64,000 nt of DNA, from assembly GCA_019914995.1 (NCBI GenBank), contig CM034126.1, forward strand, positions 6,949,001-7,013,000. The letters are read 5' to 3'. The notes under the pieces were generated by a model. The model did no database searches and was not told the DNA's origin. It saw only the letters and a program-made list of their open reading frames with translations. The stretch is from Acanthochlamys bracteata. Lineage: Eukaryota > Streptophyta > Magnoliopsida > Pandanales > Velloziaceae. The position numbers and the translations under genes are program-made. Below are positions 34,216 to 64,000 of the stretch, piece by piece. The number at the start of each line of letters is the position of its first letter. Position 1 is the first letter of the stretch.

Positions 34216-35265
34216 TCAGAGCAGAGTCTCAGCTGGAAGAACAGCATTCCTAGAGCTACGGCCATGCCCGAAAGAGAAGAACGATCGCCGAATCTTCCCT
34301 ACTCCGCCGCCGCTACTACTGCTTCCTTCTCCACATGATCCATTATCAATATTAGTACTACTCCCTTGAAAGTACTGTAGTTGGTTTTTTCTCAACAAAT
34401 CCTGAACAGAGAGGTATAACTTACGATCACAACAAGAGTCCATGGAGAAGGACCTCCGTATGGGTTGGACGCCCGTGAACAACTCATCTTCTTCACCTCT
34501 TACAATGTCAATGAACTCATCCCCTATGCTTGTGGTGACCCCTTGCCTCTTTTTCCTACCATCACATTTTTTGTTTACTACCTGATCATCTCTTGTCTCA
34601 CTCTGTTCATTTTCAGCTTCTAGGATTTCTATGATTACGTGATCATCACCATCATTATTGTCTGAAGCCGCAGGTTGCAATACTGGTAGGTCAGTAGCAG
34701 AGACGTCAGCAATTTCACGACGACAAAGCGGGCAGTTAGCATTCGACAGAAGCCATGTGTCGATACAATCTATGTGGAACTCATGGCTGCAGACAGGAAG
34801 AAGTCGGAGAAGCACTCCGTCTTGGAATTCAGTAAGACAGACAGCGCACTCTCTCGCCCATGTCACAGTATTGCTATTGCTCAAACGAAAACGAACGCTT
34901 GGTAGATTGTTGATTGTTTGTTGGTCGAGACCTGTCCGGGTTTCACGAGATGCATTGGCAGTAAAGAAAAGTGTAGTCCGTGCTGCCGCTTGGCGCATGC
35001 TGCTGGACGTTGATGTCAGGCGACGTAACAATTCACTTCTGCGCCAACTTATGCAGCAGTTGATGACGAAGATGTAGTAGCTCACCAGTAAGATAGCTGT
35101 AGTAAGAATGCCTAAGATTGAGATAGCGAGGATCGGAAAACTTGTTTCCGATGACGACGGTGACCGCGGAGTCGGTGGTGGTGGTGGACTTGTGGAAGTA
35201 GGACCAGAATACTCCATTTGAAGAGACGAAGAGCTTGAATCGGAGAAGCTGAAGTAGAGAAACAT
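34216..35265 (-). CDS. ATL-family RING-H2 E3 ubiquitin ligase
   Basis: A single-exon, intact gene of 349 codons. Residues 43-68 form one hydrophobic membrane segment after a Pro/Ser-rich N-terminus. A basic stretch (RRSELLRRL) follows, then the ATL GLD motif (TGLDQQTINNLP, 111-122). The RING-H2 finger has zinc ligands C140, C143, C159, H161, H164, C167, C178 and C181 with canonical spacing, plus the E2-contact Trp171 in CIDTWLL. The C-terminus has acidic and Ser/Gly-rich stretches and RRSF repeats. ATL proteins transfer ubiquitin from E2 to membrane-associated targets, often in defence or hormone responses. A second in-frame ATG (codon 17, 35217) starts MEYSGPTST, and either could be used. 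A copia element of the same orientation begins 296 bp upstream. The member number cannot be assigned from sequence alone. Confidence 0.93.
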   Translation of the reverse strand: MFLYFSFSDSSSSSLQMEYSGPTSTSPPPPPTPRSPSSSETSFPILAISILGILTTAILLVSYYIFVINCCISWRRSELLRRLTSTSSSMRQAAARTTLFFTANASRETRTGLDQQTINNLPSVRFRLSNSNTVTWARECAVCLTEFQDGVLLRLLPVCSHEFHIDCIDTWLLSNANCPLCRREIADVSATDLPVLQPAASDNNDGDDHVIIEILEAENEQSETRDDQVVNKKCDGRKKRQGVTTSIGDEFIDIVRGEEDELFTGVQPIRRSFSMDSCCDRKLYLSVQDLLRKNQLQYFQGSSTNIDNGSCGEGSSSSGGGVGKIRRSFFSFGHGRSSRNAVLPAETLL

Positions 35266-38800: not shown

Positions 38801-39200
38801 TGTTTGGAACATGTAGAACAAAAGGTAAAGTTAAAGTATATGAAATAAAACATCCAGATTTGGTAATGAGTAACTGAGAACCAGCTGCTGTGTGTATGGA
38901 TGAAAAATGTGATTGCAAAGATATTATTTTAGATAATAAAGACTTATGCGAAATCATGTGATGAGAAGCACCAGGATCTAATATTCAAGAAAAAGACATA
39001 CTTGGAGAGGCAGAAAAGGCAAATATAAAGGAGCCAATAAATGATAATTGTTGTTGAAACTGGAGTTCTAATTGGGTAAGATGATATTTTTGCTTGAAAA
39101 TATGAGGTAAGAAAAGTCAGGAGAGATCTGACGAGCTGCCGATACACTATCAACGATATGTGTTTGAAAATCTTGAGAGCAATTTGAAGAGAAGAGGTAT
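35890..39200 (-). pseudogene. Copia D gag-pol remnants
   Basis: From left to right on the plus strand (C- to N-terminal): RNase H (35.89-36.3 kb), RT (36.4-37.3 kb), a Ser/Pro-rich linker (37.3-37.6 kb), integrase C-terminus (PQIFWAEAILMSVNLINITPS, near 38.0 kb), integrase core and GAG-pre-integrase (38.1-38.7 kb), and a protease-like region (TAAGSQLLITKSG, near 38.9 kb). Every domain has stops or shifts. Confidence 0.78.
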
Positions 39201-43527: not shown

Positions 43528-43938
43528 ATGGAGGAGGAGAGTTCTCCTAGGGGAGGAGAAGGAGAGGTGAAGTACAGAGGTGTTCGACGTCGGCCATGGG
43601 GGAAATACGCGGCGGAGATCCGTGACTCGAATAGGAATGGCACCCGCGTGTGGCTCGGCACGTTTAACACTGCTGAAGAAGCTGCGCGTGCTTATGATCG
43701 TGCAGCGTTCAGGATGAGAGGATCTCTTGCCGTGCTCAACTTCCCGCGAGAGTTTGCTGCAGCAGCAAGCAATAACGACAGCAGCGGAGGATGCTTTTCT
43801 CCTTCAATGGCGTCCTCTCCTTCAATGGCGTCCTCGTCGAAGCAAGTGATAGAGTTTGAGTGCTTGGACGAGAAAGTGTTGGAAGAACTTCTGGACAATG
43901 AAGATCATAAAGAGAATAAAGGGAACAAGAAACAATAG
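43528..43938 (+). CDS. Small group IXc ethylene-response factor (ERF95/96/98-like)
   Basis: A single-exon gene of 136 residues. Residues 15-73 are one AP2/ERF domain ([30 protein letters not shown]), with the Ala and Asp in AAEIRD that mark ERF rather than DREB binding; the expected target is the GCC box. The Ser-rich middle holds a duplicated SPSMASS. Residues 107-123 ([17 protein letters not shown]) are an EDLL-type acidic activation motif as in Arabidopsis ERF95-98. The start is ATG 43528; the frame is open six codons further up, but only with TTG. A nuclear activator of ethylene/jasmonate or stress genes is likely. It lies 14 kb from a larger ERF1-like gene in the same orientation. No defects are seen. 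Confidence 0.93.
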
Positions 43939-45003
43939 TGATTTTTTCTGAAGTTCATGTCAAGTGCCTTCAGAGTTCATTGTACTACTATCTATGATAT
44001 CGATCAGAGATGGATATTCTCTGAAATTAATCAATAAGAATTAATTTTCTTTTGCAATACCTTGATCTCTCTAGCAAGCACAACCACTCTTGTGCCTCCT
44101 TGGAATCCAGACTAGGCGGGAACTGATTAATTAACCACTCAACCATGGATTTCAAATATATAACAGCTTTGAATTAAAAATGATTGTACTTTGATATTAA
44201 CCGTATACTTTTGTCCTCAACAGTATGTGCGGTCATATTTTAACTATATATCAGGCAGTTCATTCTAATAGTTCAATCGTAGGACACATTTTGGGCACCT
44301 TTGGCATTCCATTTCTTTTAACTATTTAAAAATGATTCCATTTTTTTCACAAAACAGCATATAATTAAATTTGGCGCTTTACTGCCAAAAAAAAAAAAAT
44401 CAATTTCTTAGTCATGAACGAGACATTCCTTCGAGTTTGACTACTAGAAAGATTACTTCATCGTTTCATCTGCTTGGGATGAAAGGAGATCCGCACTCAT
44501 GAAGATATCGGATGTTCAATTGAAACAGCAAGAGTGACGCTTAGCTTTATCCTTGAGCGTCACCACTAGTCGAGTTAGGCAGATTTGGAGGGTGATGGGG
44601 TTTCTCCACTTCATACTCCGTGTTATGTAGCATGCTCCAATACCGTAGATAACTCTCTACTCAGATTACTGTATACTGTTGTTGCGGTGCTTCCAGTTCT
44701 TGGAAAGTCAATCTATTGCCTAGTTTGGTTTAATGTTGATCAAGGTACATGTAAAGTTGGGTTGTAGATTTTGGTAAACAGCAATTTTTTTGGTTATATT
44801 TTGGCTTAGATTTTGATCCAAGATGACCAAATTTGAGTTTCATTATCGACTTCAGAGGAGTTTATCGATCTGCTGTCAACCTCAGAGATGTTAACAACCT
44901 TATACGATATTTTATGAGTTTTGGCAGACCTTATTTGAGCTCCTTCCAATCTTCCGCATTTATATCCGACCCTATATGGTCGTACTAGTCGCACTAGGCC
45001 ATT
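43939..45003. other. Small ERF 3' flank and intergenic DNA
   Basis: The 3' UTR probably ends near the AATAAG-type signal around 44030. The remainder carries short frames without family signatures. Confidence 0.4.
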
Positions 45004-45006
45004 TCT

Positions 45007-48000
45007 CGCTACAAGACAGAACACCAATACAGATCACCAAAGCCAGTCTATATTAATTGAAAACGGTCGCTAAAGCCTTCGGCGACCAGCGATTGAAGGT
45101 CACCAACGTGGTCTCTCTAGCCTATTCGTTGAAGCTTTTCGCGATCGGCTTTGGTTGGTGGTAGTTAATGTTCACACCAAAAGCAACCATCTCTGTTCAA
45201 TTATTAGCGACCAGGTTAACAAGGTCGCAGTTATACTGCAAACCACGAATGGCAAGTAGCGGTCGCTGCTACACACATAAGCGACTAGAAGAAAGCTGTC
45301 ACTGATACACACATCAACGACCAGAAGAAAGTTGTCGCTTGTTCGGACATCAGCGATCGTGACGTCTAGTCGCTTTAGAAAATAATCGCGACCACTGGTG
45401 TCTAGCCGCAGATGTTGACATCGGCAATGGGCTTGTACTGGTCGCCGATGCTCCTATTATTTACCAATTAGCGACCATATGAAACCGATCACTATTAGTT
45501 GAAATCCGCGACTGCTTCTTGCTGGTTGATAATTTAGTTTTTATATCTCTTTTTATTTATAATAAAAAATCATATAGCATAGTAATTCAATACTAAATAT
45601 TACCAAAATTAAAATTTCATTCAACAAATACAAAATATAGTGAATATTTAAATAAAATTTAAACTATATCATTATTTTCATACAACAAATACAAAATTTA
45701 TAAAAATATTACATTATATTATTTTAATATAATAAAAAGCTATCTAACAAAAGAACCAACCACCTAGGGCACTCTTCTCCTCAAATAAGAGCAAAAGATT
45801 TTGAAACTGAAATGAAAAAAAATATAAGAATATTAGCAATATTCATCTATGTATTGAAATAAATATCTATGCTATTTTATTTTAAGATCTCTAAAACATA
45901 AACATACTTTCAACTTACTTTTTGTATCTCCAAATTTGATTCCGACTCTTCCTACAAGTCACACTCGTCGGGCCAATTGTGTCAACGCCAATTTTGTACC
46001 ATTTGATGGCTTAGTTTAATTTTGACCCCCTATGTTGTTAAATATATAAACTATTCTACATTAAGATCGTTGAGACCTAAAATTGCTTCTAACTTTCTCA
46101 TCTGACCTCCAAATCTGATTCTGACTCATCCTACAAATCACAATAATTGAGCAATTGTGTCGATGCTAATTTCTTCGTACCATTTGTCGACTTAATATAT
46201 ATTTTGACCATATATCTGTTAAATACCTAAACTATTCTATATTAAAATATTTAAATTCTAAACTTGCTTGTAACTTACTACACAGAATTCTAAATTTGAT
46301 TATGAATCTTCCTACAAGTCACATCCGTAGAGCCGATCGTGTCGGTGCCAGTTTTTTGCTATTTGAAGGGTTAGTTTACATTTTGACCTCCTATGTTGTT
46401 ATAAATTAAACTATTCTATATTAAGATCTTTAAAACCTAAACATACTTCTAACTTACTTCTCGGATCTTCACATTCGATTCTAACTCTTCTTACAAGTCA
46501 CACTCGTCGAACCGATCGTGTTGGCACTAATCTCGTACCGCATGATGGCTTAGTTTATATTTTATCCTCTTATATTGTTTTAAACTATGTTATTCTAAAT
46601 TAAATTTTCTAGGTCTTAAACTTGCTTCTAACTTACTTCACGAGTCTCCAAATTTAGTTCCAACACTTCCTACAAGTGACACTCGACAAGCCTATTTGTG
46701 TCGGCATCAATATCGTGTCGTTTGATGATTTAGTTTATATTTTTAGCTCCTAAATTTTCTAAATCCTAAATTTTTCTTAACTTGCTAATAACTAAATATA
46801 TCGTCTAACAATACTAGTAAATTATAATAAATAGCGATCGGCATCAGAACATTGTCGCCGATGTAGAACCCAATCATGACTGACATCACATAACAGTTGT
46901 TGATTATCAGTGTTTCAAAATCGAGCTGAGCTCGTTCACGCGCTCGGGTTATTCGTAATACCATCTCCGACTGTCAAGACGAGCAAGTGCAGATGTGGAA
47001 ACTAATAGCGACTAGAAGGCTCAGTGGTCGTTGGTTGTTAGTGTTTAGGCGAGTTCATTCATACGCTTGGATTAGTATCAAGAAAATTAGCAACTATAAG
47101 TCTGAATAGTTGCTGATTTCACAACATACGCTGTTGTCATCTCGGGCGATCGCAAATGCTCTAAGACATTAGCGGCTAGCTTGTATGCCCAAACGCTAAT
47201 AGACCAGAAATAGGGACCAACTAAATTTTGGTCCCTATAACTTTAAATTTTAAAAATTTTAGAGTAATTAATTAAATATAAACTGTTGGATGTGACTTTT
47301 ATTTTTTACATATATTGTTCAAAATGTTTAGATTATTTGGGTGATATTTGCTACTCTATCATAATAAATAACTAACGGACGTATACGATTTAACAATTTA
47401 TATGGTTGTAATTAGAATATTAATGTATATCCAAATTTGATAAAATCTTCTATGGACGATAATGTTCTAATATTAAATATATCAAATAGCTTAGGTAATC
47501 TATTTGAAATATAAAATTATATTATTTGGATAAGTAAAATAGTGAAAGAGTATAAGTATCATGTTCATAAACAAACTTATCTTTACGTTGTTAACTCATT
47601 TACTTAATTCACACAATCTTTATGTTGTTAACTCGCTTACTTAATTCACACAATTATAAAAATAAAATCGACATCTAAACCGTTGAAAATATTATATACT
47701 CTAATATTATTGTTCACACAAATTTTTATCAAAATTGGATATAATTATTGCTTCAATTTATGATAATAGTATTGTCATATCCTACACATTCATCAATTAT
47801 TTTTTGTGATTGAGTACAAAATAGTATCCAAATGATTTAAAGTTTTATCAATATGAGACATATAAAATATAAATCACATCTAACGATTTAGATTTTACTA
47901 AATAAATTACTATTAATTAATTTGAAATTCATATTTTTTACTGTATTAGAGATCAATTAAGCGTTGGTCTCTAATACATCTAAATTATGACCAATTTTTA

Positions 48001-48404
48001 TAGCCTAGTCATTGTTCCTAGATTAATATCGACTAAGAAAACTGTCGGTCGCTATAGCTTATAGCAATAGCGACCTTCTTATCAAATGGTGGTTGTTTCT
48101 CTAAATATTAGCGATCGGTAGAAGGATGATCGCTATACTCAAGGTAATAGCTAATAGGATTATGACATTTGCTGTTGATTAGAAATAGTAGCGACTAAGA
48201 CAATAAAGGAGTCGGTATTACCTAAAGCAGTAGCAACGATGGAGTTTGCTGATAACTGCTACCTTTACATTTGCGACCATTTAAATGTTCCATTCGCGGA
48301 TGAGTTAATAACAGCGACCGTATACGCTTTGGTCACTATTTAATAGCGACCCTATTGTTTCAGCGATAATTAGCTGGCCGCTAATAATCTCCTTCCTTAT
48401 AATG
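45007..48404. mobile_element. Degenerate nonautonomous CACTA (En/Spm-like) transposon, 3.4 kb
   Basis: The ends CGCTACAAGACA and (inverted) CATTATAAGGAA are each two to four changes from the CACTACAAGAAA consensus. They are flanked by a 3-bp TCT duplication (45004-45006 and 48405-48407), the CACTA length. About 450 bp at each side is packed with TAGCGACC/GGTCGCTA-type motifs in both orientations, as expected for subterminal transposase-binding sites. An internal TAGCGACC-rich patch lies at 46820-47220. No transposase is encoded, and the interior is AT-rich with a tandem array. Confidence 0.72.
45868..46785. repeat. Tandem array of five 180-bp repeats inside the CACTA element
   Basis: The marker CCTACAAGTCAC (with small changes) recurs at 45951, 46130, 46311, 46490 and 46669, i.e. 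every 179-181 bp. Each unit also has CTAACTTACTTC, CCAAATTTGATTC, CGATCGTGTCGGC, GATGGCTTAGTTTA and AAACTATTCTATATTAAGAT. Copies differ from each other by roughly 15-25% by eye, so the array is old, yet spacing is preserved. Confidence 0.85.
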
Positions 48405-48407
48405 TCT

Positions 48408-49874
48408 CCATTTTGAAAATTTTCGATTTTAATCCTCTTTTTATATGTTTTATATTTTTATCTTTATATGGATTAGTTTTTTAGAGAAGTTTGTCCTGAT
48501 TGAAAAGAGCTTGTTTTCTCGATCTCTCTTTCTCTAGAGATTTCTGATGTGCTCAAAGATATACATAATATGATGCACTCTTTGATCATATATGCTTAGT
48601 TTTTATATAGAAAAATAATTTTTTCGTGGAGATTTTATGACGGCCAATTCGATTTAAAAGCCAAGACATTCAAGTTGGTTCATCAATTATTTCAAAATTT
48701 TAGGGCAACCATTTGATATTTATTCACTGAAGAAGTTGAGATACGATGTAGACCCAAATCATGTGTGTAGTCTCTAAAACGAGTGCTCTTGACAGTCTTT
48801 TCGAATTTTCAATAATATATGTGAGATATGGCTAGAAACATAAGACATTGATACTAACTTTACATATATTATTTTTTGGAGGCAAAACAGACACTAAAAC
48901 GGTGCAGACAAACGGGTGAAAAGAGAGTTCGAATTAGTTTGAACTACACCTACCTAATTATGGAAAGAAAAATCCAATGGTTTTAAATTCTCAAATTTCG
49001 GATTTCCAAGACAGGACAACAGGAAGAGGCGGCTCATCTATCGTTTATTTTCTATGGTTCTTGCCGCTAGAATAGGGAGAAAGATGGACGGAAGCACGAA
49101 GCAAGAAAAAAGACGGTAGTTTGCTCGACACCACTTTTTGTTCAGGATTTTTTTATTCTATTTCTCATATTTTTCTTTATTTTATTAGATATGAAAATTA
49201 TGAAATAAATTTGTACTTGCTAGGGCTATGATGTAACCGGACTATGATATTTTAATTCTTAATTTTATGCTATTCGAAGCTTTATAATTTCTTATTGATT
49301 ATTCATTATCGTACTTAATAATTTTGAGTATGTGGCTAATATTCGATCGATTTTAGATTCGTATTGAGATAGAGATGTGATGTATGAATTGGTCTTTGTA
49401 ATGAATGTCATGAATTGTATGAGAGACAGAGATGTATTCCTATGGTTCATGAAGTTAATGCGAAATGCTATATAACTTAATGAGTTTTTGTAGTATGTTA
49501 ATTTAAATAGAGATATATTGAGTTATTGCATGAAAATACTTTTAGTATAAATTGAGAAAGTATATCAAAAAAGATTAGAATTTTCTAACTATCAATAAAG
49601 ATTATAAATTTCGATAGCATGAATACGAAGTTGAATTGGATTAATTACGGTAAAATAAAATGCCATATCGTTTAAGTCATTGAAATCTTACGAGTGTTAG
49701 TTTAAACTTATTTTGCTTTCTTTATTTTTAGCATTCACTCTTTTTAGATCGATCGTTCAAATAATTTTAAAATTAGTTATTTTATACTCAATACGTTAAT
49801 CAATTCTCGTGGTAACAATATTTTTTTCAGTATTGTATTATTTGTGCGACTCATACAATTACAATAGCAATAAG
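48408..49874. other. Intergenic DNA
   Basis: AT-rich with no open frame of note. The motif TGCCGCTAGAATAGGGAG near 49060 and the surrounding slightly GC-richer 150 bp do not match anything I know. Confidence 0.4.
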
Positions 49875-50219
49875 TTCTATCTTTTTCTCGTTAGAGTTTT
49901 TAAAAGATTTGTTCTTTTTTGCTTCAATCTTTTATCATATTTACAATTTATAGTGTAATTTTTCTCTCCTCTCCGTAAATGTACGTCTCTCTTGATGTGG
50001 ATCTACGTAAATATTGTCTTCATTTATTGTTATTACTATTATTCTTGATCTCATCTATGATTCTAGTAACTGTTTTGGCTAGATCTAAAAAAATTAATCA
50101 CTAAGTATTTTACACTAAGTAGATCTCTTCATTATCTACTTTACTAGAAGCAATCTTGCTTTGATTCTAAATTATTTAGTTCTACATTGCTTTCGCTACC
50201 TCCCCGCTCGTTATAATAT
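49875..50219 (+). mobile_element. Partial LTR of the copia B family
   Basis: Aligns with the reverse complement of 17696-18040. Shared blocks include AAATATTGTCTTCATTTATT, AATCACTAAGTAT, AAGTAGATCTCTT and TTTAGTTCTACA. The element body and the first half of the LTR are missing, so this is a truncated solo LTR in plus orientation. Confidence 0.75.
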
Positions 50220-50811
50220 TTTTATTGTTAGACTAATTCTTATTATCTATCAGATCGCTTATATTTTTAAATTAAGAATTTAGATTATGATGAGCATCTT
50301 CGCTAGTATACCACACAAATTTTACTCAAGTTTAGCTTCAATAGAAAAGAACTAATTGGCTGGTTAGTTGGATGAATATACAAGCAACACTAACGTTGAG
50401 CTAATACCCGTAATTAATGAAGTAATTCTATTTGCTTAACTAGTCTATTTTACACGAGTGAGTTGCATGGATGGATATGATTATCCAGAATTTAAACATC
50501 ATCAATTACCTTAATAGTAGTCGTTGATGAGTTCATTCCAAATTATATCTCGATAATATTTTTAAAAATTTTTTTTTAATTCAAGGACTTCTATATAAAG
50601 TATACATATGAACAACTGCTTTCACTCGCAAGTATAACCATTAGAACTATAATCATAACTGGTATAGTGACATTATATATACATAAGTTTTTCTCAAAGT
50701 CACATTTAAAACAATGAATCGATCTTATTATGATATGCCATTCATGATAACCTTTTTATTATGTCAAAGGGATAAGGACTTACGAAATCATGATTGATAA
50801 GTAGTAATTAT

Positions 50812-51600
50812 CACTACAAGAAAATGATCAAGCCCATGCAAATGTGAAGACATGTTAAAATTACGTACTATTAGAAAGATCTTACTAAAATCACAACTAT
50901 TACACATTATGATCACAACCAATTTCAGCCAAAACATCACGCGACCAACACATAAAAATCACAGAATGTGTAGCTCATATATATTGCAATCACAATACAT
51001 GAGAAAACTACGTACAATTTTCAATCATAATTACTACAAAACACAGCCAATTTTTAGCCAACAATGTATAATCCAAAGCTATGAATATCTAAACGTACAG
51101 TCATAACGTATAGATATTACGACCAAAACAAGAAAATCACAGCCATCACAGCTAATCCATGCTATAGTTAAGGCCAAATATATCACAGGCAATACATGCT
51201 GCGATCATAAAGAACTATAAAATCACAGCAAACTATAGCTCATACATGCTGTAATCATAACACATAAAAAAAATCTATAATTTTCAGCCAATACAGCTAC
51301 AATAACTACTAATCTTTAACCAATCAATATATTATCCAAAGTATGAAAATCAAAGCGGTCATAGCCACCATATACTGCAACCAAGCTATAAAAATCATAG
51401 CCATTGTAGCTGCCAAGAAAGCTATTAAATTCACATCATCGGAGCCACTAAATTCTGTTACCAAGATATGCAAATCAGGAATTTGATCATAACTGCTAAA
51501 AATCCATCAAAATACAGTAATTTTTACATACAACTAATTTCCTAATACTTAACTTTGCAAAATTTTACATACAGCTACAACCTATAAAATCACTTATGAG
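50812..51600 (+). mobile_element. CACTA terminus with subterminal repeats
   Basis: CACTACAAGAAAAT at 50812 is a perfect-looking CACTA end. It is followed by at least five spaced copies of an AAAATCACAGCCA / CATAGCCA motif with TAGCTCATA companions to about 51420. The opposite terminus (TTTTCTTGTAGTG) is not seen, so this may be a one-ended remnant. Its motif differs from the TAGCGACC motif of the element at 45007, so it is a different CACTA family. Confidence 0.62.
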
Positions 51601-54237
51601 AAGTGATTCATAGGTTCAATTAGCTAGCTGAAGTAAATAGTGGGAGGACAAAATAGCATAAGGGAAAAAAATTGGTAAGATTAGAGTTTCGTCAGTGAGG
51701 TTGATTCGGTGTTGAAAACAATAGTGAGCAGATCGGGGTCCAAAGTACAGCTCATAAGAAGTTTTGAATAAAAGTAGACATAGGGAAGTAAATCGAAGTG
51801 GCTATGAGCAGTGAGTGAGAGCGAGTGCTGCAGGAGGTGAAAAGGAAATGAGAAAAATATAAATTGTTAAGAAGTATTAGAATCAATTAATTTTATGAAC
51901 ATCTGATGCGCAAAATTATCATTGCACGTACCCACGCCAAGGAAAAAAGCTTCGTGCGTTTTTCTTTTGTAAAGCTATAATTCGTAGGTTTTTCTGACCA
52001 TCCAAAAACGACACAAGAAGCAGTTTTAAAAATTACTTGCATCCATTTTCACTATTTTTACAAAAAAAGCTTAGCCAGACGTGGGCTTATCCAGAAGAAA
52101 ATTTTTTGCATGAATTACTTAACTAAGGAAGCTTCCTAGATTGGAATTTGTTTCGGAAAACCTTGCGAGTTTCCAGAAGGTCCAATATAGGTCTAGCTAA
52201 TATTCAAAAGGAACTTTGACGAAGAAGAAGAAGTTGGTCAGGTGCATTGAAGAGGGACATGAAATGAGGTAGAATTAGAAAGGCTATGAAAAATAAATAA
52301 ATAAATAAATGAAGCTTGTGATTGGTGATGTGGTGGGTTCTAATTTCCACCATATTCTAGCTAAACATTTCAAAGGTTCAAAGAACCTAACACTTTCAAC
52401 TTTCAAGACAACGACATTCTCACCAAGCATCTTTAGTTTCATAGCCTTTCTACATTTATCCTTATTTTTTACATTTATCCTTCATATATATATATCTATA
52501 TATATATAAAGTATTTGTAAGGTATATATGCATAAAGGGACAACCTAGTGAAACTAGAAACAATTCTAAATTTGGCTCAATCTTATGTTATGTACTTCTA
52601 GTCAGCATGGAAATTCTTAGGAAGTATAAATTTTCTAGTATCTTAAGGCAAGATAAAATCTAAAGATATCAACAAAAGTTAACATTTAGACTAAAATTGA
52701 TCTATATAATAATCGAGTCAAAATCGTTAAATTTTAATCTTATATATATATATATTTATAAAAATCAAATTGTCAATTATAATTTAACATAATTAATATT
52801 TAGGTCAAACTTAAATCGACCTATTTGATAATAAAAATTAGTGAAACGAGAATCATAAAACTTATTTTTAATAATAATAGATAAAATTTATTAGTTATCA
52901 TATATCTAACATAAAAAATATTCTTTTGATAAAATCTATAAATTAAATAAAAATTAATCAAAATATGATAAATATAAAAAAATACTATTAGATATTTTAT
53001 AAATATTAGATAATATATGTTATATAATTAATTTAATGAATTAAATAGACTAATTTCGGATCGATTTGAATCTGAACCGAATTTATTTAAATTATGGGAT
53101 TGATTTCCGGATGATCCAAAATTAATCCAAACCTAGCTAAGCTCAAATCCGAATTTAATTTGAATGGATCATGATTGAATTTACGGATGAGGTCATATAT
53201 TACCGTCCTTGATAAACACCATAAAAAAAAAAAAAAGTAGTTTGTTGGGGTGAGTAGTATTTGTTCTTCTTTGTAGAGTGAAACCTACAAGTCCAATCCA
53301 CTTATTCATGTATAGTAAAAACAACTTTATTCCGTCTAAAACAATCAAAATTTTCACATATTTTAATCAGTCTGTCTACAGTTATTTGAATTTGTTGCTA
53401 GAAAAAATCGCATAGTTAAAATTTTTAATTTTATGAGGATGTATGAATTCTTAGCAGAATTACTACTTTCAAAGTTGTTGACCAAATTCTAAATTTGCAT
53501 CTTCTAAGTAGATATGCATACAAAACCAAAAAGTATTTGTAAAGCTTATACGCCATATTCAATCTAATATTAAACTCTCTATTTTTGGAAATCTAAAGAA
53601 AAAAATATGATTTTGACATGGAAGATAACGTTCCTATGTTTTGACCAGTCAAGTAGATGTGGACTCCAAAGTTTTGGTCACAAGAATTAGCAGAAAGTTA
53701 TAGCTGTGTTTTACATAGTACAAAGTGAGCTTTATAAATTTAAGTTTGATGAAACTGAATTAAGTAATAATTAAAGATGAGTTCGGTAAATTTGAAGTAA
53801 ACTAAAAATAAAAAAATGAGTTCGAACTTAACTGACGAGAGAAATAAATTTTGTTTAATTGAAATATATTGTAGTGGATTACAGTTTCTTAGAATATATA
53901 TTGGTGAATTACTATAATGAAATTTATATCTTGGCTCTTCACACAATTGAAGGATACACATTACAAGGATCTAGAACTCTTCGATTCAAAAACGGAGTTT
54001 GGAGGTTGGAGCTCAATGTCAGTTGACTCTTCAACCCAAAATTTGATTTGGTTTTTCATGACAAAACTGTTGACACACTAACAGTTCAATGAGTGACAAA
54101 TCAGGTGCAACATGAACATGTTACATCTAGCTGCACCAATGAATGAAGAGGGCAAAGCTGTGAGAAACTTTACTTTCCATTCCAAAACCCTGGCTTCTAA
54201 AATTTGCATCTATCTGGACAGGTTTTGTCTTTTTGCT

Positions 54238-54492
54238 GAGTGTCTGAAATAAAGCTTTTCTGTTTTTTTAATATAATTTTAAATTTTAAATTTTAAATTT
54301 TTTAATATATATTTTATAAGTATTAAAAATTTTACTTAAAATTTTAAAAAATAAAAAAAATTCTACGTAATAAAATTTTTTATTATATATTTTTATTTTT
54401 TTAAAATAAAAAAGTAAAAGTTATTTTTAAAAAAATAAAAATATTTTTTATTTTAAAAAAATTCTTTTTTATAACAATTTCAAACGCACCCA
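54238..54492. mobile_element. Tourist-like MITE, AT-rich variant
   Basis: Right end ...CAAACGCACCC is the inverted GGGTGCGTTTG terminus. The left end GTGTCTGAAATAAAGCTTTT is eroded. The interior shares TTTATAAGTATT and a TTCTACGTAATAAA block with 56456-56710. Confidence 0.62.
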
Positions 54493-54838
54493 ACTTATTG
54501 GTTTCGTTCCTTTTGAGTTACTCAATTCTTTTGTGGTCATAGTTGCCGCATGCACAACCTTCTAAAATAGCCATGAACAATCACGAAGGATCACTGATGT
54601 AGTGCATGTTTGACGCTGAGTTCCAAGACGCTTCTTATTTTAACTCAGTTTTTTTATTTTCAATTTTTTTTAAAAACAATATTTTAAAAATATTTTTTAA
54701 AATTTAAAAATAATAATGAATTTATACATTATAAAATTTTTATATAAAATTTCAAAAATATTTTTTAAAGAAAATTTTATTTTAAGAATTCCAAATTTCC
54801 TTGCAATTTTTCTAAAAACAAGGTTGCACTTTCAATTA

Positions 54839-55040
54839 GAGTGTGTTTTTTTATATACGGAAATGACTATTTTTTTATTAACAAATTATTTCTAACTCAC
54901 TATTTATTATAAAAAAATATAAAAAATAATTTTTAATTTATTTTTAATAAAAAAATACATTACTTTCAACAATATTATTTCTAACAACTCAAAGAACTCA
55001 TTTTTAAAAAAACTTATTTTCAAAATCAAAAAAACGCACC
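54839..55040. mobile_element. Tourist-like MITE (202 bp)
   Basis: Ends GAGTGTGTTTTTTT and (inverted) GGTGCGTTTTTTT are flanked by a TTA duplication (54836-54838 and 55041-55043). Noncoding, AT-rich. Confidence 0.72.
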
Positions 55041-56455
55041 TTAATGATAGAAATAATATATGTAATCTCATGTTTAACTAAATTTAAAAAAATTGTCTAA
55101 GTTTAAACAAAAAAATTATTTTGGGCCGTGTGCTTATTTATCTGGTACTAAAACGTTCCTAAAGTTATAATTATGATGCAAATAGCCATGCCATTAGTTT
55201 GAACCTAACAGCATCATCAATTAACACTTATTTTGGTTTTCATTCAAATTCGAAAGATATTCTAATTTCTGGAATAAATAAGACTTTTTAAATTGCTTGT
55301 ACAAAAAACCATTTTTCTAGTATCTCCAATTACTTAAAGGAAATCTTTCGACTGTGTCATTTTCAATTAGCTCATTTCTAAAGTCAAGTTTTTCAAACCC
55401 TTCTATCAGTACAGTAAATATTAAAATTAGTTACAAACATCAACAGTCAATATTTAAAGGTCTCCCATAATCGGAATAAGACAATTATTTTGGCAGAGGA
55501 AAGGAAGAAAATTCAATGAAAAACATGTCATCCATGCCTAATGAAGTGAGAGAGCCATTTGACAAAATTTTTCATTTCATTTTATTATTTCATTTTAAAA
55601 TTTTATTTCAAATAAACGTTCTATATTTCTGATGCTATGTATGGTTTTAATTCAAGTAAACCATCTTTTTATAAAACGGACTAATTCAAGTAAACCGGTA
55701 TTCAATGTAACGAGTTTATTTAATTTGAATTGTTCTTTCAACTACCATTATATATTTATTTTTAGATAAACCTTATTATTATTATTTTCTGCTCCCTACG
55801 ATTTTATTAAAAACGTATTGCTAGAGATAGAGAAATATTAAACCGTGCTTTTGGATACAAATTTTGAGTGCAATAGGAACTATTTTTCAGATTACAGTTT
55901 AACAAGGACGTCAGATTTTAAAGAAAAAAATTAGAAGTGGCAATATATGCCCAGTTCGATTTGAAATTGACTCACAAATTTAAATTATTATTTTTTAAAT
56001 AAATATCTTTTTCTAATGTTTTTAGTAATAATAAATATTTTGATAATAAAAAAAATTGATAATAGTAATATATAAATTATATTGTATTATAATTCATCAT
56101 TTACATTTATATACTAATAAAATAGTTTAAGATGAGAATTATAATATTATCAAAAGTTAATATGTAGGTAATTTTTTAATGACGAATTTAGATTTAATAA
56201 AAAATATTTATCAAAATTTTGTTAACTAGTTATATTTTATCGAAATTTTTATCGTTAGTATTACTATGTATATAATCGTAAAATTTCAATTTTTACCACA
56301 TATTTTTAAAAATAAAAATAAAAAATTTTTTTAGAATATTTTAAAGATGAATGAAAATACTAATGAATGCACAAATTGACGCATACACAGCATATCACTT
56401 CACCAAGAAGATTGTCTATATTTATTCCAACTTATTTTAAAATTTTAATTATTAA

Positions 56456-56710
56456 GGGTGCGTTTGTTTTTACTTTTCCCGACGAAACTTTTAAATTTTT
56501 CATTTCACGTTTTTTAATATATATTTTATAAGTATTTAAAAAATTTAGTTAAAAATTTAAAAAGTGTAGAAAAATTCTATGTAATGAGATCTTTTTATTG
56601 TATATTTTTATTATTTTTTTGAAAGTACAAAAAATAGAGCTCGTTTTTCAAAAAGAATAAAAATACTTTTCATTCAGAAAAGCTCTATTTTATAAGCAAT
56701 CCTAAATAGA
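56456..56710. mobile_element. Tourist-like MITE, best-preserved plus-oriented copy
   Basis: Starts GGGTGCGTTTGTTTTTACTT after a TAA and contains ATTTTATAAGTATTTAAAAA, ATTCTATGTAATGAGATCTT and AAAATAGAGCTCGTTTTTCA, all matching the reverse complement of 11988-12247. The right end (ATAAGCAATCCTAAATAG) is degraded. Confidence 0.75.
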
Positions 56711-57284
56711 TCGATCTGAATTTGATGCGCTTATTAAATAAATTAGATTAGAATTGACAATTTTGATCTATATAAATATATAAATTAGATTAAAATTAAA
56801 CAACTTTGATGTATTATTATATAAATTACTCAAAATTGATTTACCAATCTTAATTATCATTTTAAAAATAAATTACTTCACTGCAAGCATGAATTCAAAG
56901 AGACGATTTTTGGAAGTCTACACCTCAGAAACTTGAAATAGTCCGAAAGTCGGAGATATTTGATAATACTTTTAGAAAGTAATTTTTTTAAAACAGAAAA
57001 TATTTAAAATTTAAAATAATTAGCTTTTTTTTATTTTAAAAAATTATAATAATAAATAATAATAAGATTTTATAGCGTAGATAGTTTTATAATTTTAAAA
57101 GTTTAAAGAAATTTATAAAATGTTATTAAAAATATAATTAAAAAAATAAAATACAATTAAATATGAAGCAATCCTAAATTCTACCTACTTGATTTTCCTA
57201 CAAAATGAATTGGGATCTTCCATCCATCATGCTGAGATAAGCGACCTGTTATATTATAGTTTTATTTATAACCTTATCTGACAT

Positions 57285-57353
57285 GCCGCCGTGCTCCATT
57301 GACCCACGTGCAAATTCCAAAACCTCCTCCTTCCCTCCTTCCTATGGCACGTG
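57285..57353 (+). promoter_or_regulatory. Stress-type cis-element cluster upstream of the ERF1-like gene
   Basis: Within 70 bp: GCCGCC (GCC-box core, 57285-57290), TTGACC (W-box, 57299-57304), CACGTG (G-box, 57305-57310) and a second CACGTG (57348-57353). These are the usual sites for ERF, WRKY and bZIP/bHLH (including MYC2-type) factors. The W-box and first G-box abut. The cluster is about 105-170 bp upstream of the TATA box, a functional promoter position. Confidence 0.7.
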
Positions 57354-57454
57354 TGAAATGGGTCCTATTCTATATACGTAGTAAGCATACCTATGTATTA
57401 TTTCTTGTTATCGTGCTTAATTAATTGAAAATTCTACTGATCCCATTCCACACG

Positions 57455-57463
57455 TATATAAAG
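57455..57463 (+). promoter_or_regulatory. TATA box of the ERF1-like gene
   Basis: TATATAAAG lies 145 bp upstream of the ATG, giving a 5' UTR of roughly 110 bp that contains no upstream ATG. Confidence 0.75.
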
Positions 57464-57599
57464 GAGCGGGATCACAGAAGCTTTCATAAAGATACAAACA
57501 CCAGCATTGCTTCCAACGAGAAAAACAGAACAAAACAGAGAGCTCTCCATATCGACTCTTCATCTTCCCCTCGTTTATTCCTCAACGGAGTCCTAGGAA

Positions 57600-58196
57600 A
57601 TGGGGTCACCGGAAACCTTCTTCCCTTACAGCTATCCTCTCTCTTTCAACATCAACGACTCCGAAGAAATGCTCTTGCTCGAAATGCTGGCTGACGACTC
57701 TGTTCAGGCCTCGGAGAGTACTTACAACTACAGCAGTAGACATCAAGTCAAGGTCGAAGTGGATTCGGAGCACAAGCATGGCCCTGTAGGAATCGTCAAA
57801 GAGGAGAAGAACTATAGAGGAGTCAGGCGGCGGCCATGGGGAAAGTTTGCGGCGGAGATAAGGGACTCAACTAGGAACGGCGCTCGCGTTTGGCTAGGGA
57901 CATTCGATAGTGCTGAAGCGGCAGCTTTGGCTTATGATCAGGCGGCTTTCTCCATGCGTGGCTCGATGGCGGTGCTCAATTTCCCTGTGGAACAAGTGAA
58001 GGAGTCGTTACGGGGACTCGACTGGAACTGTGACAGTTGTTCTTCACCGGCGATGGCCTTGAAGAAGAGCAACAGAATGAGGATGAAGTCGAGAGGAACA
58101 AGAAGTAGAGAGAATAATGATGTTGTTGAACTTGTTGACTTAGGCCCTGATTACTTAGATGAACTCCTCAGAGTTTCATCTGAGGGAGGAATGTAA
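57600..58196 (+). CDS. Group IXc ethylene-response factor, ERF1/ERF15-like
   Basis: A single-exon gene of 198 residues. The N-terminus holds [15 protein letters not shown] (16-30), the short acidic motif shared by ERF1 and its close relatives. The AP2/ERF domain is at 71-129 ([39 protein letters not shown]), followed by EQVKESL, a basic stretch ([11 protein letters not shown], a likely nuclear signal) and an EDLL-type end [16 protein letters not shown] (175-190). Family knowledge: Arabidopsis ERF1 binds GCC boxes in PDF1.2- and chitinase-type promoters and joins ethylene and jasmonate signals. Direct orthology to ERF1 rather than ERF15 or ERF92-type paralogues is not decided. The promoter has GCC, W and G boxes. 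The frame is intact and codons are GC-richer than the surroundings. Confidence 0.94.
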
Positions 58197-59672
58197 CACC
58201 AACAGCAACATCCTTGTTGGGCTCTACGTCTCTGTTTTAGTGAGGCTCTTCTCTTCTATACAAGTTTTCTAGAAGGGATAACATTTATTTCTAGAAGGAT
58301 GTAAGTTGTAAGAAACGAAGCTCAATTTTTTGCTTCTTCTCCATGCAATTAATTTGCTCAGATTTTTTTCTATAGGATGAAGCTAAAAGCTTTGCAAGAA
58401 AAGAAAAACAAGTCCAGATTACTCGTAATGAGTGCCACGATACTCATAATCTACGCTTTTTTTGTTGTAATATTGTTCTTGTTCTCTCTCCTTAACCAGT
58501 CTCCTAGAAGTTCAATGTTGTTCTTCTTCTTGCGTAACATTTAACCAGTCTCCTAGAACTTTGATATTGTCTCACATGACTCGTTTATGCATTCATGATT
58601 GATGAAAGATGTAAGAGATACTCTTTGTTTTCAAAATCTAGATTATCGTCTTATCACGGATTGTAGAACGAGTTATTACACAATTAGCACAGACGGTTTA
58701 ATCTAAAATTCGGTCAGAAATCAGTGTAAGATTACCAATTTCCGATCTTGGCCGGCAGGTGACGTGAATCTGACTTCACTGCTTTATGGTACCAGACTAT
58801 CAGTAATTCACTCTGTATTGAAGGACTCAATTATGAAATAGCTAATATAAATATTTTTGCTATTTCTTATTTTTAGCTGATTCCACAGAATTATTTGTTT
58901 TGCTCCTCTTTTTGTAGTTGACTCCATATATGAGTAATTTTCTACTTTTTCAGTGTGATAAACATTATTTCTGGGAACCATGAACATCGAGAAGAAATTG
59001 TGAACACATAAATTGTATAGTTCCAGTTCATTTTTTTGCTCTCTTTTACTTTTCAAACTCCGTAACCACGTTTTCATGCTATTGACTTCCAATTTGCATT
59101 TACATATTCTCTAATGACATCATTTTTCACATACTTTATTTTTAATGTTTCTCCAGGTGTTGATTTTTTTTTTTTTCCGCAGAAACTTTCCTTTTCTTTT
59201 TGTTGAAATAATTTAGGAACATGCATCTGAAACTATCTGTGCTAAGTTGTTTAATTTTCTTAAGTAATTACTAATGGCGACTTCTATTACATAGAGCACT
59301 TTCATAAATTGATTTAATTTGCACAATTTTACGAGGTGCGCACACTACCAATGACGAGTGAATAATAGGATGTCCAAAATCAAATTAGTTATTTTACATT
59401 ATTGTAAAATTATAGCATAACTAGATCAATAAATTTATAATTAGGTTTTAAATTCTTAGAATATGACGTGTTTTTTTTGAATTCATGCAATCTAAACGAC
59501 ACAGATGTCAACATTTGCTGCCTAGTATCAACATTACTATGAAAATGTTGAGCATATTTTGTTATGTTCTTCTGGTCTCATATTCTACCGGCAGCGGCGT
59601 TTTTCGTTTTTATGCATAGAGCAAGATGTTGCCATGGAAAACTTTTCGATCATACATTTTGTAGAATTGAAT
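58197..59672. other. ERF1-like 3' flank and intergenic DNA
   Basis: Presumed 3' UTR for the first 150-250 bp. Two near copies of TTAACCAGTCTCCTAGAA (58492 and 58541) form a short local duplication. The frame at 58808-59092 has no family signature. Confidence 0.4.
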
Positions 59673-60275
59673 TCTCAAACTAAAATAATTGACCAACCAT
59701 TTAAAAATTAGGATCTCTTACTTATAAATACATAGTTATTCGAGCACTCAACCAATATACAACTCTTATAGGACGTGGACTGTCAATCTCACCAATCTAA
59801 AATTCACTTATCTCAATTCAAGACGAGTTATTAGCCTACCTTCATATTTGTTAGCCTAATTTTTATTTTGGCACCATTCCTATGCTCCTCTGCAACTAAT
59901 TCGGATCTAGCATAAATTCAAGGCCCAATAATCTTCCCTAGTAATACACCAGGTGAGCTCCACTCTCGTCGGGCTCTAATATGAATTATGGGTTCGGATC
60001 ACCAAACTAAAATAATTGACCAACCATTTACGAGTTAGCATGTTCTATTTACAAGCACACATCTATTTCAACATCTAGCCAATGTATGACTATTAAGGGG
60101 CGTAGGAGGTTAAGCCCACCAAATTATGATTTATTTGGCCTAATTTAAGGAGAGTTGCTGGCCTATCTTCTAAGTTTTACTAGCTCGTTTTTATTTAAGC
60201 ACCATCTCTAGGATCCTTTGCTACTAAGCTGAGCCTAACCCAATTTGGAGGCCAACACATAGGCAAGAATTCTTC
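59673..60275. repeat. Two-copy direct repeat, 327-bp period
   Basis: CTAAAATAATTGACCAACCA occurs at 59680 and again at 60007. It is followed in both by ATTTACAAG/CTTATAAAT-type sequence, CAACCAATATACAACT / TAGCCAATGTATGACT, GGCACCATTCCTATG / AGCACCATCTCTAGG, and CTCTGCAACTAA / CTTTGCTACTAA. Divergence is substantial. It could be an LTR pair without an interior or a plain tandem duplication. Confidence 0.7.
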
Positions 60276-63200
60276 GACTCAATTAAACATGCTTATCGAG
60301 CTTCTACATTGACTACCGTTGCTTGGTAACCTTGGAAATAGATTCCTCATCAAGCTGGAAGTTTGGCGGGGAATTCGTCTCATAGTGCTCTTCTTTAGAA
60401 CAATATCCTTATTAGCTGTTGATTTATTTAGTGCTTAGGGGTTGAGTTTCAGTAGTATCGTCAAACAATATCCAAGATAGTTTCACAAATACCAGCTCCT
60501 ATTCTTAAGATGGCTATTAACTCAGATGCATCATTAGTTTCTAATAGAAGGGATGAAAACTATAAAGTCTTATTTATTAGTGTCTTGCCAGCTAGAAGTA
60601 GATGTATGTTGGAGGCGAAAGCACCGACGTTATATGATGTTTTATCCACATTCAGAGACAACATTCTGTCCTAGCTATAATTGAAGTCGATTCTTGTCGC
60701 GATGCTTATGTCAATCCACTTATCATTAAAGCACTTGTACTTGTTAGTATGCGACATCTACGGGGAAGACGATAAACTTCATGAATTTCTAAGTTTTCTC
60801 TATACATTTTCTATCCTGTTTGTATTTGAAATATATCAATAATGATCTCTGTAGTCTTGATTTGCAATTGTAGAACCGATATGTAATTATCCTTTGTTTG
60901 TTTGGATTATTTGATTATATAGACCACATCAAATTCAAATTTATTTATCTAGACCACCTTTCTGCCAAAAGACCAAAATATTCTCAACTTGAAGCTGCTT
61001 AACACAATTCTCTTCATCCTCACTGAGACTTCATCCTTTCCTTTTGTATATAACTCCTTCTCACTTAATTTGTACAAATCACTTAACTTCTAAAACAAAA
61101 TTCACTAGCTCTCGCAAAAACTTTTCCAACCGATTTCAATCACGTCGGCCATAAAATGAAATCTCTTGATGTCGTATCTCTTTTTCGCATAAAGGGTAAT
61201 AGTTTCACGAGATATGCTAAAATAACTGTAATATTTTCCAAATCATGTGTCTATTGCTTTGTTATTTGGTTTACTGTCAAGTCTACATTATTAAAGTCGC
61301 ATATACTTGTAATGGTCGCACATAGCCTTACATATGGCAAACATGGTCGCCCATGCCTAGATAGATCACACACATGGGAAGAAATGGTGGCATACATAGT
61401 GCATCTCCATATTGACTATGTATAATTTCTTCTCTTCTTGTGCGATCACGGTTTGGCAATTTGTCAGGATCAAACATAGTTATTGGACATGGTAATATTC
61501 AATTTTTTGTTTGCAATTTAGATTTCATTACAGATGATATTCAGAAGCACAAACAATAATTGAGGAGACTTCTTCATCTGGGCCAGCAATATGACAGAAG
61601 TTAAAAGAAATGAGTATAACTCAATTTTGAGAAAGCTAAAACACCTCAAATTATTTATGATTGAAGGTTAATCAATCAGCATAAGACGAACGTAATATAG
61701 CAGTTAGGTGACGGATGGAATGGTTGGTCAAAAGCTTCCTCTTCTCAACAAGCTCTTTTTAGAGATAGTTTCCTAGACAGCTCGTTTCTATTCTTATCGC
61801 ATTGAAGTTAAGCATCATTAAGATAACTTGAAACTTATCAACACTAAATTAGTCAGATTTAAAATTTTTATTGCTGACAATAATTCTATCACACCGTTCG
61901 TCATATAATATTTATCAAATGAAAACATCAAATCTGGTAATTCAGTTTTGAAACTTTTAGCTTATCCTCATGATGCTTAACTTTTCAGGCTATAAGAAAG
62001 TATTGAGTATGAACTGTCTACAACATTCTAATTAGTAGGGCTTACTTTTCATGCGTAAATAATTTAGGGCAGTCTTTTTCTTTCAAAACTGAATTATTGA
62101 TTGAAGTTTTCACATTACGGAGTATTCTTTAGTCTGAATTACATTTTTGAATATTTGTGTAAATTTATATGTAAATATGAATGATGTTCTTAACATTGTA
62201 AATAAATGTTTATAAGTGATATGGGTTTAAAAGTTTTGTCTTGCATCTTAAGCTTTGTTTGATAAATGATTTTGATTATTGTTAATGCCCTAATTGTGGT
62301 ATAATTATTAGAGCTTATTCTCATGATTTTGCATTTGTGCAACCTTAGGCGAGATATCTTTTCAGATGTTTAAACTTCAATCATAGTCTACTTAACTCTC
62401 TCCAAATCATGTCTGTGTGACCACTCAAACATTATGTGCGACATGTGCAACTTTTAAATAATTATTTTAGAATGATAAATGTCCATATTTTTTGTGTGCT
62501 AAATGTATCAAGTGATTGATTGTTAGATACAAACAGTGATTCGAGTGAGGTGTCATTTCTTCAACCATATTTATGCGACCTGATATTGTCCATGTGAGAC
62601 CATCACATGAGAGAAGCCAAATGCTGAGCGCTGCATTCACCACATGCAAAAATAAACAAAAGTCATTCATAAAATTTAGAAATATCTAAAGATAAGGAAA
62701 TTTAACATATTAATGTCTATGTACGACTATATATTTGCCTCACGCTTTACACATTTACAATGTTCAGAAATAAAATAACATTTACATATTTATAATTTGA
62801 TGTTAAAAATTTTTTATTAGATACTTTGCAACTTTGTGCATGTGTGACTAGGAACAATATGCCATGGTTCTTCTTTATTTGTCAAACAGTTTCGAACTGT
62901 ATTCTTCCTCTCTCTATGTCAAACAAGTTTCGACTACCGTTACTCGCAAGCTCTCCAAATTTCATGAGCCATAAACATTACTAACGAGATGGGAACAAAG
63001 AAGAAAAATATGAAAGATATCTCAACGTATCTCGTGAAGGCATTATTAATATCAATCGGAGAGCCGTTGATGAACTCCAAACTTGAGAGCTGACGGAGTT
63101 GAGGTTCAGCTACCGGCGTTTCAACTTGAAAATTTTAAGAGTGATTCCTAATAGTTTGGAGAATAAAAGTAATTTTAGAAAATCTGAATTAAGGTATTTC

Positions 63201-64000
63201 GTTCTTTTGACACACAATTGACCATAAAAATTATTTTGAAAAGATGGCCTACAAACACGAAAAGAGGGTGTACGTCCTGTTTAAACAAAAACATATGCTC
63301 CTCTTGAGAAAAATATGTTCATCTTAGGTTCTGAACTCATCCATAGTTACCAAAGTTGGACTGGACCCCCGAGTCAATTGAAAACTATTGATTTGTGTCT
63401 TAAATTAGTCCGGGTCTGTAATTTAACCATTCCGGCAATGACCATGTGACCCGATTAACTCGGATAGTTATCGTTGACCCAGTTGAACAAGTCCATCTGA
63501 AATTTACTAAAAAATGTATATATTTCTGATAATGATAAGTTTGTAACATATATCAAATAGATTGATTTGGAAGGACAAGAATTTGCAGTAGTGATAGTGA
63601 AGATTTTTGTCAGTATCTGCATTAATTTAGCATAAATCAGCTATCATAATGAGAAGAAGAACAATAGCGATAGATTATTTCATCGTGACGATTTGTCTTG
63701 ATCTTAACAAGATTGATAGTGATCGATTGGCAGTTATCGCTCGTTGTAGAGCGTTGATAATTAGTGCATCTGCCTTTCAATTCAAACTTGAAGTACTCGT
63801 TTTTTAGTTCACAGACACGAACGCAAAAAAAGCGCTGGTAAGAGACATCACTTCCTCGACCACCAGCATTGCTATTTGACTATGAAAAGATATCATTTAA
63901 TATGCAGATCACTAGATATTCACCCCATGCCTGAATTAAAAATAAAAAATCAGTATCGTACGTGCCGGCGAATTGCAGCAATATCACTAAAATATTACCA
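60276..64000. other. Terminal intergenic region
   Basis: No convincing gene. The frame at 60485-60690 (MAINSDASLVSNRRDENYKV) looks mildly protein-like but has no known domain. 61297-61450 and 62430-62610 share GTCGCACATA/TATGTGCGAC motifs in opposite orientation, reminiscent of CACTA subterminal sites, but termini are not seen. 63340-63500 has Pro/Gly-codon-like CCGGGT/ACCCGATT motifs resembling the subterminal DNA of the hAT-like element at 9034. Confidence 0.4.

Follow-up and report, generated by a model that had tools for sequence, protein, structure and literature searches.

The window analysed here is a stretch of 64,000 nucleotides from Acanthochlamys bracteata (C1:6949001-7013000), which contains two group IXc ERF genes, a small one of the ERF95-98 type and an ERF1-like one, together with a divergently oriented ATL-type RING-H2 gene. 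All genome searches reported below were carried out in the window's own genome (195.5 Mb, 557 contigs). The features that concern us first are the following:

43528..43938, + strand: small group IXc ERF (ERF95-98 type), a single-exon uninterrupted open reading frame from ATG to stop, 136 amino acids (aa)
43570..43725, + strand: AP2/ERF DNA-binding domain of the small ERF (residues 15-66), from Pfam and from the alignment with AtERF96
43843..43893, + strand: EDLL-type C-terminal motif of the small ERF, from the alignment with AtERF96
57600..58196, + strand: ERF1-like group IXc ERF, a single-exon uninterrupted open reading frame, 198 aa
58122..58169, + strand: EDLL-type C-terminal motif of the ERF1-like protein, read in the protein
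34219..35265, - strand: ATL-type RING-H2 gene, divergent (zf-RING_2, 47.5 bits; a hydrophobic stretch, a GLD-like stretch and RING-H2)

Each ERF protein has one copy of the AP2 domain (small ERF: 61.9 bits; ERF1-like protein: 58.7 bits; curated Pfam cut-off for PF00847: 33.3 bits). The best solved relative of the small ERF is AtERF96 (PDB 5wx9, E 8.4e-44), and the alignment pairs residues 10-135 of the window protein with chain residues 9-131 of 5wx9, i.e. it covers nearly the full length and includes the C-terminal EDLL (CMIX-1) motif (EFEYLDDSVLEELL in AtERF96). The length of 136 aa also falls inside the range of about 131-139 aa of ERF95-98 type proteins (PMC4659910). Solved structures match the ERF1-like protein around the AP2 domain only; towards its C-terminal end this protein has the stretch FNINDSEEM, followed by the EDLL-type motif. 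From the stop codon of the small ERF to the ATG of the ERF1-like gene there are 13,661 bp, and none of the eight stop-to-stop frames of at least 70 aa in this spacer gave a Pfam match above the cut-off (two weak matches, E 0.003 and 0.009, fall below it; a gene of short exons could escape). No tRNA was found in the window, and no Rfam family at the gathering score. The original prediction, made from the sequence of the window, had described two single-exon ERFs in the same orientation, 13.7 kb apart, with EDLL ends and no gene between them; both frames are indeed intact on the + strand with the motifs in place, and the gene-free spacer holds as far as Pfam on the eight frames, the tRNA search and Rfam can tell.

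To place the two ERFs we used two trees. The first had 41 rows, namely AtERF96 and the proteins read at 40 ERF places out of 42 retrieved (the AP2 matches in the genome total 97), and left out C5:3493597, C6:6613366 and a decayed copy at C3:9920709. In this tree the small ERF of the window, its copies on C2 and C3, and AtERF96 as the only named member form a clade with support 92/88, and the four ERF1-like copies (C1, C2, C3 and C5) form another with support 98/91. AtERF96 joins the C3 small ERF at 90/75, which hints weakly that the split between the C1 and C3 copies may predate the split from Arabidopsis; the joining is weak in view of the long branch of the C3 copy and of the small ERF sequences having residues in less than half of the columns. 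The second tree was smaller, its 25 rows being drawn from 21 of the 40 places, from AtERF96 and from three provisional Arabidopsis reference sequences. Here the provisional ERF1B groups with the C1 and C2 ERF1-like genes (81/86), both inside a clade with the provisional ORA59 (94/90), a grouping that serves as a lead only. The naming of one gene as ERF95/98-like in the original prediction is therefore upheld by the near full-length match to AtERF96 and the 92/88 clade. For the ERF1-like gene, the EDLL end and the clade with the provisional ERF1B and ORA59 point in the predicted direction less strongly; once the provisional sequences are included, in the smaller set of rows, the small ERFs lie in an open fork. 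A further ERF of IXc type with an EDLL-like end, C13:3809517, stands on a long branch next to the ERF1-like clade (94/91); we found no match of the ATL clade or of the small ERF near it, and no pair of a GCC box and a G-box (described below) in its 3.4-kb locus.

A six-frame search of the genome with each window protein revealed that the ERF pair is not single. On C2, a small ERF at 7004183(+), 85% identical to that of the window, is followed at a spacing of 14.0 kb by an ERF1-like gene at 7018597(+), 80% identical; on C3, the corresponding genes lie at 9928483(-) and 9925442(-), 60% and 50% identical, with a spacing of 2.5 kb. In both cases the small ERF precedes the ERF1-like gene on its 5' side, with the two genes on one strand, like in the window, and this recurrence on C2 and C3 shows the pairing of the ERFs to be more than chance. 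A fourth locus, C5:730584(-), has an ERF1-like gene alone, with no match to the small ERF near it. On C3 there is also a decayed third ERF (9920709-9921062, - strand) with three in-frame stops, located downstream of the ERF1-like gene and resembling it, which is probably a dead tandem copy of that gene. Elsewhere, four AP2 matches at C1:1611958-1639365 and three at C2:1788917-1811477 make up a second homeologous pair of ERF clusters, by inference probably of group IXa/IXb type.

The ATL gene lies 8.3 kb upstream of the small ERF and was absent from the account given in the original prediction. Its protein, as read from the sequence, has an N-terminal hydrophobic stretch (FPILAISILGILTTAILLVSYYIFV), the stretch GLDQQTINNLP, and CAVC-x15-CSHEFHIDC-x10-CPLC, a RING-H2 spacing that we take to be that of the ATL type. 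An N-terminal hydrophobic helix, a GLD motif and RING-H2 make up the architecture of the ATL family (PMC3161093). When relatives of this protein were sought in the genome (the best 116 of 191 candidates were scored), close ones turned out to be two only, with 258.7 and 242.4 bits, the next candidate scoring 82.5 bits. These two, C3:9934659(+) and C5:737876(+), lie divergently beside the C3 and C5 ERFs, so that all three members of the clade (3/3, the window gene included) are within 10 kb of an IXc ERF. Among the 116 ATL-type matches, four have an AP2 match within 10 kb, against 1.15 expected by random placement, and three of the four belong to this clade. The presence of ATL relatives beside the ERFs of C3 and C5 indicates that the unit comprises three genes, ATL - small ERF - ERF1-like. 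Upstream of the ATL genes of C3 and C5 we observed a 150-bp stretch (C3:9933862-9934004 and C5:736787-736937; 74% alike) with a possible reading MSHHIHDPG in both, which could be a conserved upstream element or a small upstream frame.

The ages of the copies were compared by synonymous substitutions per site (Ks, Nei-Gojobori), with YN00 as a second method. Nei-Gojobori values between C1 and C2 are 0.45 for the small ERF and 0.56 for the ERF1-like gene, and between C3 and C5 they are 0.73 for the ERF1-like gene and 0.42 for ATL. Between C1 and C3 we obtained 2.47 (ERF1-like) and 1.94 (ATL), the small ERF being not computable, and between C1 and C5 2.06 (ATL), the ERF1-like gene being not computable; the values from YN00 lie at 0.32-0.72 in the younger pairs, and for the older ones this method gave none. 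From this contrast it follows that a younger duplication made C1+C2 and C3+C5, and that an older one separated these two pairs. Sister pairs of AP2 genes lie in parallel order on C1 and C2 (1.61/1.79, 1.63/1.80, 1.64/1.81, 6.99/7.00 and 7.01/7.02 Mb) and in opposite order on C3 and C5 (2.31/8.68, 4.58/6.68 and 9.93/0.73 Mb), and from these positions the younger duplication looks chromosome-wide. The tree also links chromosomes through their AP2 sister pairs, as C1-C2, C3-C5, C4-C6, C7-C12, C10-C15 and C16-C18, and such chromosome-by-chromosome pairing is the mark of a whole-genome duplication. The older duplication may, by inference, correspond to the core-eudicot triplication.

The copies differ in what they have kept. 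Between C5 and C3, the region from the ERF1-like gene to ATL shows 15 short matches, 10 of them collinear. The gap between the matches that end at C5:732748 and start at C5:733732 measures 1.0 kb, versus 3.1 kb on C3, where the small ERF sits; no frame of a small ERF remnant was found in the 7.8 kb examined on C5. A search of 40 kb on C2 revealed no coding sequence for ATL, and none of the matches in this ATL clade is on C2 (best 116 of 191), but a 55-bp match of 80% to the 5' region of the window ATL gene was detected at C2:7000751-7000805 in the expected orientation (45.5 bits vs 30.1 bits for the best in a control stretch). Both C2 ERFs carry lesions. In the small ERF, Arg replaces the Trp equivalent to W41 of AtERF96; W41 makes contact with the GCC box, and binding and transactivation are reduced when it is changed to Ala (W41A; PMC7593309). 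The ERF1-like frame has an in-frame stop within the EDLL motif, the removal of which abolishes the activity of ERF96 in protoplasts (PMC4659910). On account of these two changes the C2 block looks to be decaying, the window copy being intact, with assembly error as an alternative source of the C2 lesions.

In front of the ERF1-like gene we found a pair of promoter motifs:

57285..57310, + strand: GCC box (GCCGCC) and G-box (CACGTG), at -315/-295 of the ERF1-like ATG; the pair occurs at all four ERF1-like copies

In the four promoters (4/4) GCCGCC precedes the ATG by 251-316 bp, and CACGTG starts 19-20 bp downstream of GCCGCC.

Taken together, these observations lead us to regard it as likely that the window carries a preserved copy of an ancient block of three genes, ATL - small ERF - ERF1-like. 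The block would have formed before the old duplication that separated the C1/C2 from the C3/C5 lineages, a younger whole-genome duplication would then have produced C1+C2 and C3+C5, and the copies would subsequently have lost different parts: C5 the small ERF, and C2 the ATL gene, with both C2 ERFs damaged. By analogy to characterised relatives, both ERF proteins are predicted to be activators that bind the GCC box via AP2 (PMC7593309, PMC4659910). The C-terminal EDLL motif, whose role in activation has been described (PMC4659910, PMC7593309), would activate, probably by recruiting Mediator (MED25), in defence and stress responses of the ethylene/jasmonate type, as in those relatives. The promoter motif suggests that ERFs which bind the GCC box (the ERF1-like protein itself, the small ERF or further group IX members), along with a G-box factor of the MYC2 or bZIP type, could control the ERF1-like gene. 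Adjacency itself would most simply result from tandem duplication and slow loss, and would not be needed for function; the C5 ERF1-like gene persists without a small ERF.

Several observations weigh against this reading. In the first tree the small ERFs have residues in less than half of the kept columns and the C3 one is long-branched, and in the second tree they lie in an open fork, with C1/C2 at 82/57 and C3 together with AtERF96 and ERF98 at 94/86. In the comparison of C5 with C3, collinearity is broken by 5 of the 15 matches, and the anchors on either side of the gap measure only 52 and 33 bp; likewise, the ATL relic on C2 is just 55 bp at 80%, and partly simple sequence. The 700-bp upstream regions of the C1, C2 and C3 small ERFs do not contain the pair of GCC box and G-box. 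Genome-wide, with 12-16 bp between the boxes, it occurs at 26 places versus 31 for a reversed-pattern control, i.e. at background level; we have therefore rejected it as a genome-wide marker, and the case for its function is confined to the 4/4 recurrence across the old split.

Spacing was the part of the original prediction that called on transposons, which were thought to have pushed the two ERFs apart. The spacer contains the following features:

48598..49876, no strand assigned: dispersed repeat of about 1.3 kb, with at least 41 other places at 80-83% identity (best 39 of 10,243 candidates)
56030..56460, no strand assigned: dispersed repeat of about 0.43 kb, with at least 39 other places at 77-79% identity (best 40 of 1,296 candidates)
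45872..46685, no strand assigned: tandem repeat of 179 bp in 4.5 copies
53461..53605, + strand: conserved non-coding stretch of 145 bp, 75% to C2:7017479-7017625; a genome search listed just these two places

The prediction holds in so far as dispersed repeats do occur in the C1 spacer and the C3 pair is only 2.5 kb apart, but C2 is equally wide with a mostly unrelated spacer, which implies that C1 and C2 widened separately or turned over. A competing account is that transposon insertion alone explains the spacing, a compact C3-like pair having been pushed apart once, before the younger duplication. The similar lengths of the C1 and C2 spacers (13.7 and 14.0 kb) and the dispersed repeats of C1 speak for it, and we consider it possible, if doubtful. 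Against it, there is hardly any collinear sequence between the two spacers: beyond the gene edges and the 145-bp stretch we found scattered or inverted matches, and the match of 56043-56445 to C2, a candidate for a conserved element, was discarded as a dispersed repeat. The distance from the 145-bp stretch to the ERF1-like gene downstream, moreover, is about 4.0 kb on C1 but about 1.0 kb on C2; on C1 the repeat of about 0.43 kb sits between the stretch and the gene. On C3 and C5 this stretch was not found, the matches there being of chance length only. Transposons thus account for the spacing partly, and C1 and C2 have had separate histories. Downstream of the ERF1-like gene, 59600-63300, which matches C2:6991147-6995135 piecewise, was considered as a flanking gene shared with C2 but differently ordered there, and was rejected as dispersed repeats, since 60 of its 62 matches listed are elsewhere, on many chromosomes (best 40 of 337), the remaining two being its own place. 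Fragments of Copia-type retroelements (integrase, reverse transcriptase and beta-barrel pieces; Pfam) were observed at 28789-32384 and at 37742-38984, the latter between the ATL gene and the small ERF, and a peroxidase exon (Pfam peroxidase, 164 bits) at 7270-7938.

Whether linkage serves regulation is a separate question from spacing. According to this alternative, which we regard as improbable, selection keeps the genes adjacent through shared regulatory elements (a domain or an enhancer), in agreement with the 145-bp non-coding stretch conserved between the genes, listed at the C1 and C2 loci only, and with the presence of the pair together in three of the four copies. However, the C5 ERF1-like gene persists without a small ERF, the 145-bp stretch and the promoter motif are both on the ERF1-like side while the small ERF promoters are without the motif, the spacing ranges from 2.5 to 14 kb with a spacer mostly unrelated between C1 and C2, and Arabidopsis ERF96 and ERF14 are away from ERF1 by their locus numbers (PMC3623832, PMC4830619). 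The suggestion of the original prediction that regulatory linkage may explain the preservation of the cluster is accordingly not supported as a need: besides the C5 and Arabidopsis cases, C2 remains without ATL.

The small ERFs and ERF1 of Arabidopsis are neighbours in a cluster that we take to be flanked by bHLH34 upstream and MYB15 downstream. No HLH or MYB matches were found close to C1:6.99, C2:7.00, C3:9.93 or C5:0.73 Mb (best 150 of 549 MYB candidates; introns split these domains), the nearest MYB match to any copy being C2:7258716, 240 kb away (again among the best 150 of 549). That the ERFs were brought together in this lineage by separate duplications, tandem or transposed, and resemble the Arabidopsis cluster by convergence, is quite improbable: the lack of such bHLH and MYB flanks close to the copies agrees with it, as does the very high frequency of group IX tandem arrays (about 53% of subgroup IX genes in 107 angiosperms, with repeated transposition; PMC11011629), but C1 and C3 share order, orientation and the divergent ATL at Ks of about 2 or beyond measure, so that an independent origin needs three genes meeting twice. 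Of the ancestral tandem cluster put forward in the original prediction, the age of the pair stands, with three paralogous pairs and a half-lost fourth; its identity with the Arabidopsis cluster is no more than plausible.

Ethylene, jasmonate and other stress signals converge on ERF1, ORA59 and the small ERFs as central switches, and a block present in several copies in one genome reveals which genes travelled together. The surviving copies amount to a natural experiment, in which C1 and C3 are complete, C5 is without the small ERF and C2 is damaged, and one short promoter motif, kept through the old duplication, is open to direct testing. The ATL gene offers a lead of its own, as an E3 ligase gene linked to hormone-response factors here and, by locus number, in Arabidopsis, where ATL1 is beside ERF14.

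Among known systems, the Arabidopsis locus At3g23220, At3g23230 (TDR1/ERF98) and At3g23240 (ERF1; locus numbers from PMC3623832) resembles the window in having small IXc ERF genes beside an ERF1-type gene, and differs from it in having two small ERFs versus one here, where the spacing is 13.7 kb. It is plausible that the window cluster and the Arabidopsis cluster are the same. A study of 107 genomes reports a Brassicales-specific transposition within IXc-1, and IXc-1 transpositions also in asterids (PMC11011629). At the level of single proteins, the small ERF resembles AtERF96 (PDB 5wx9) in its AP2 domain and C-terminal EDLL motif over nearly the full length; the N-terminal helix of AtERF96 binds DNA (PMC7593309), and the first 9 residues of the window protein are unaligned with AtERF96. 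The ATL gene also has a counterpart: ATL1 is At1g04360 (PMC11678080) and ERF14/ERF97 is At1g04370, with ORA59 at At1g06160 (PMC4830619), so ATL1 and ERF14 have consecutive numbers and gene types as in the window, a likeness by locus number and gene type only. ERF96 (At5g43410) is away from ERF1 (At3g23240) by locus number (PMC3623832, PMC4830619).

Tandem clusters of groups IXa and IXb offer a wider comparison, as old group IX arrays kept after genome duplication, in other subgroups than ours; the NIC2, ORCA and GAME9 loci are presumably of this type. An ancient IXa-IXb tandem has been reported, and the Results, Discussion and figure legends of the same paper mention no IXc tandem of small ERF and ERF1 and no ATL link (PMC11011629). 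In the open-access literature, as far as it was covered, we found no report that joins ATL and ERF neighbours or describes an IXc cluster of small ERF and ERF1 outside Arabidopsis. The three-gene block is a well-preserved case of a known type of gene cluster, with an ATL neighbour that we have not found reported before. In Arabidopsis we take ATL16 and ERF96 (At5g43420/At5g43410) to be a second pair of an ATL and a small ERF. We tentatively propose that ATL - small ERF - ERF1 may be an ancient eudicot neighbourhood that predates the old duplication and was scattered in Arabidopsis into ATL1-ERF14, ATL16-ERF96 and ERF95-ERF98-ERF1, in which the switch of GCC box and G-box on the ERF1 gene would wire ERF feedback to jasmonate, and the ATL ligase may tune the same response.

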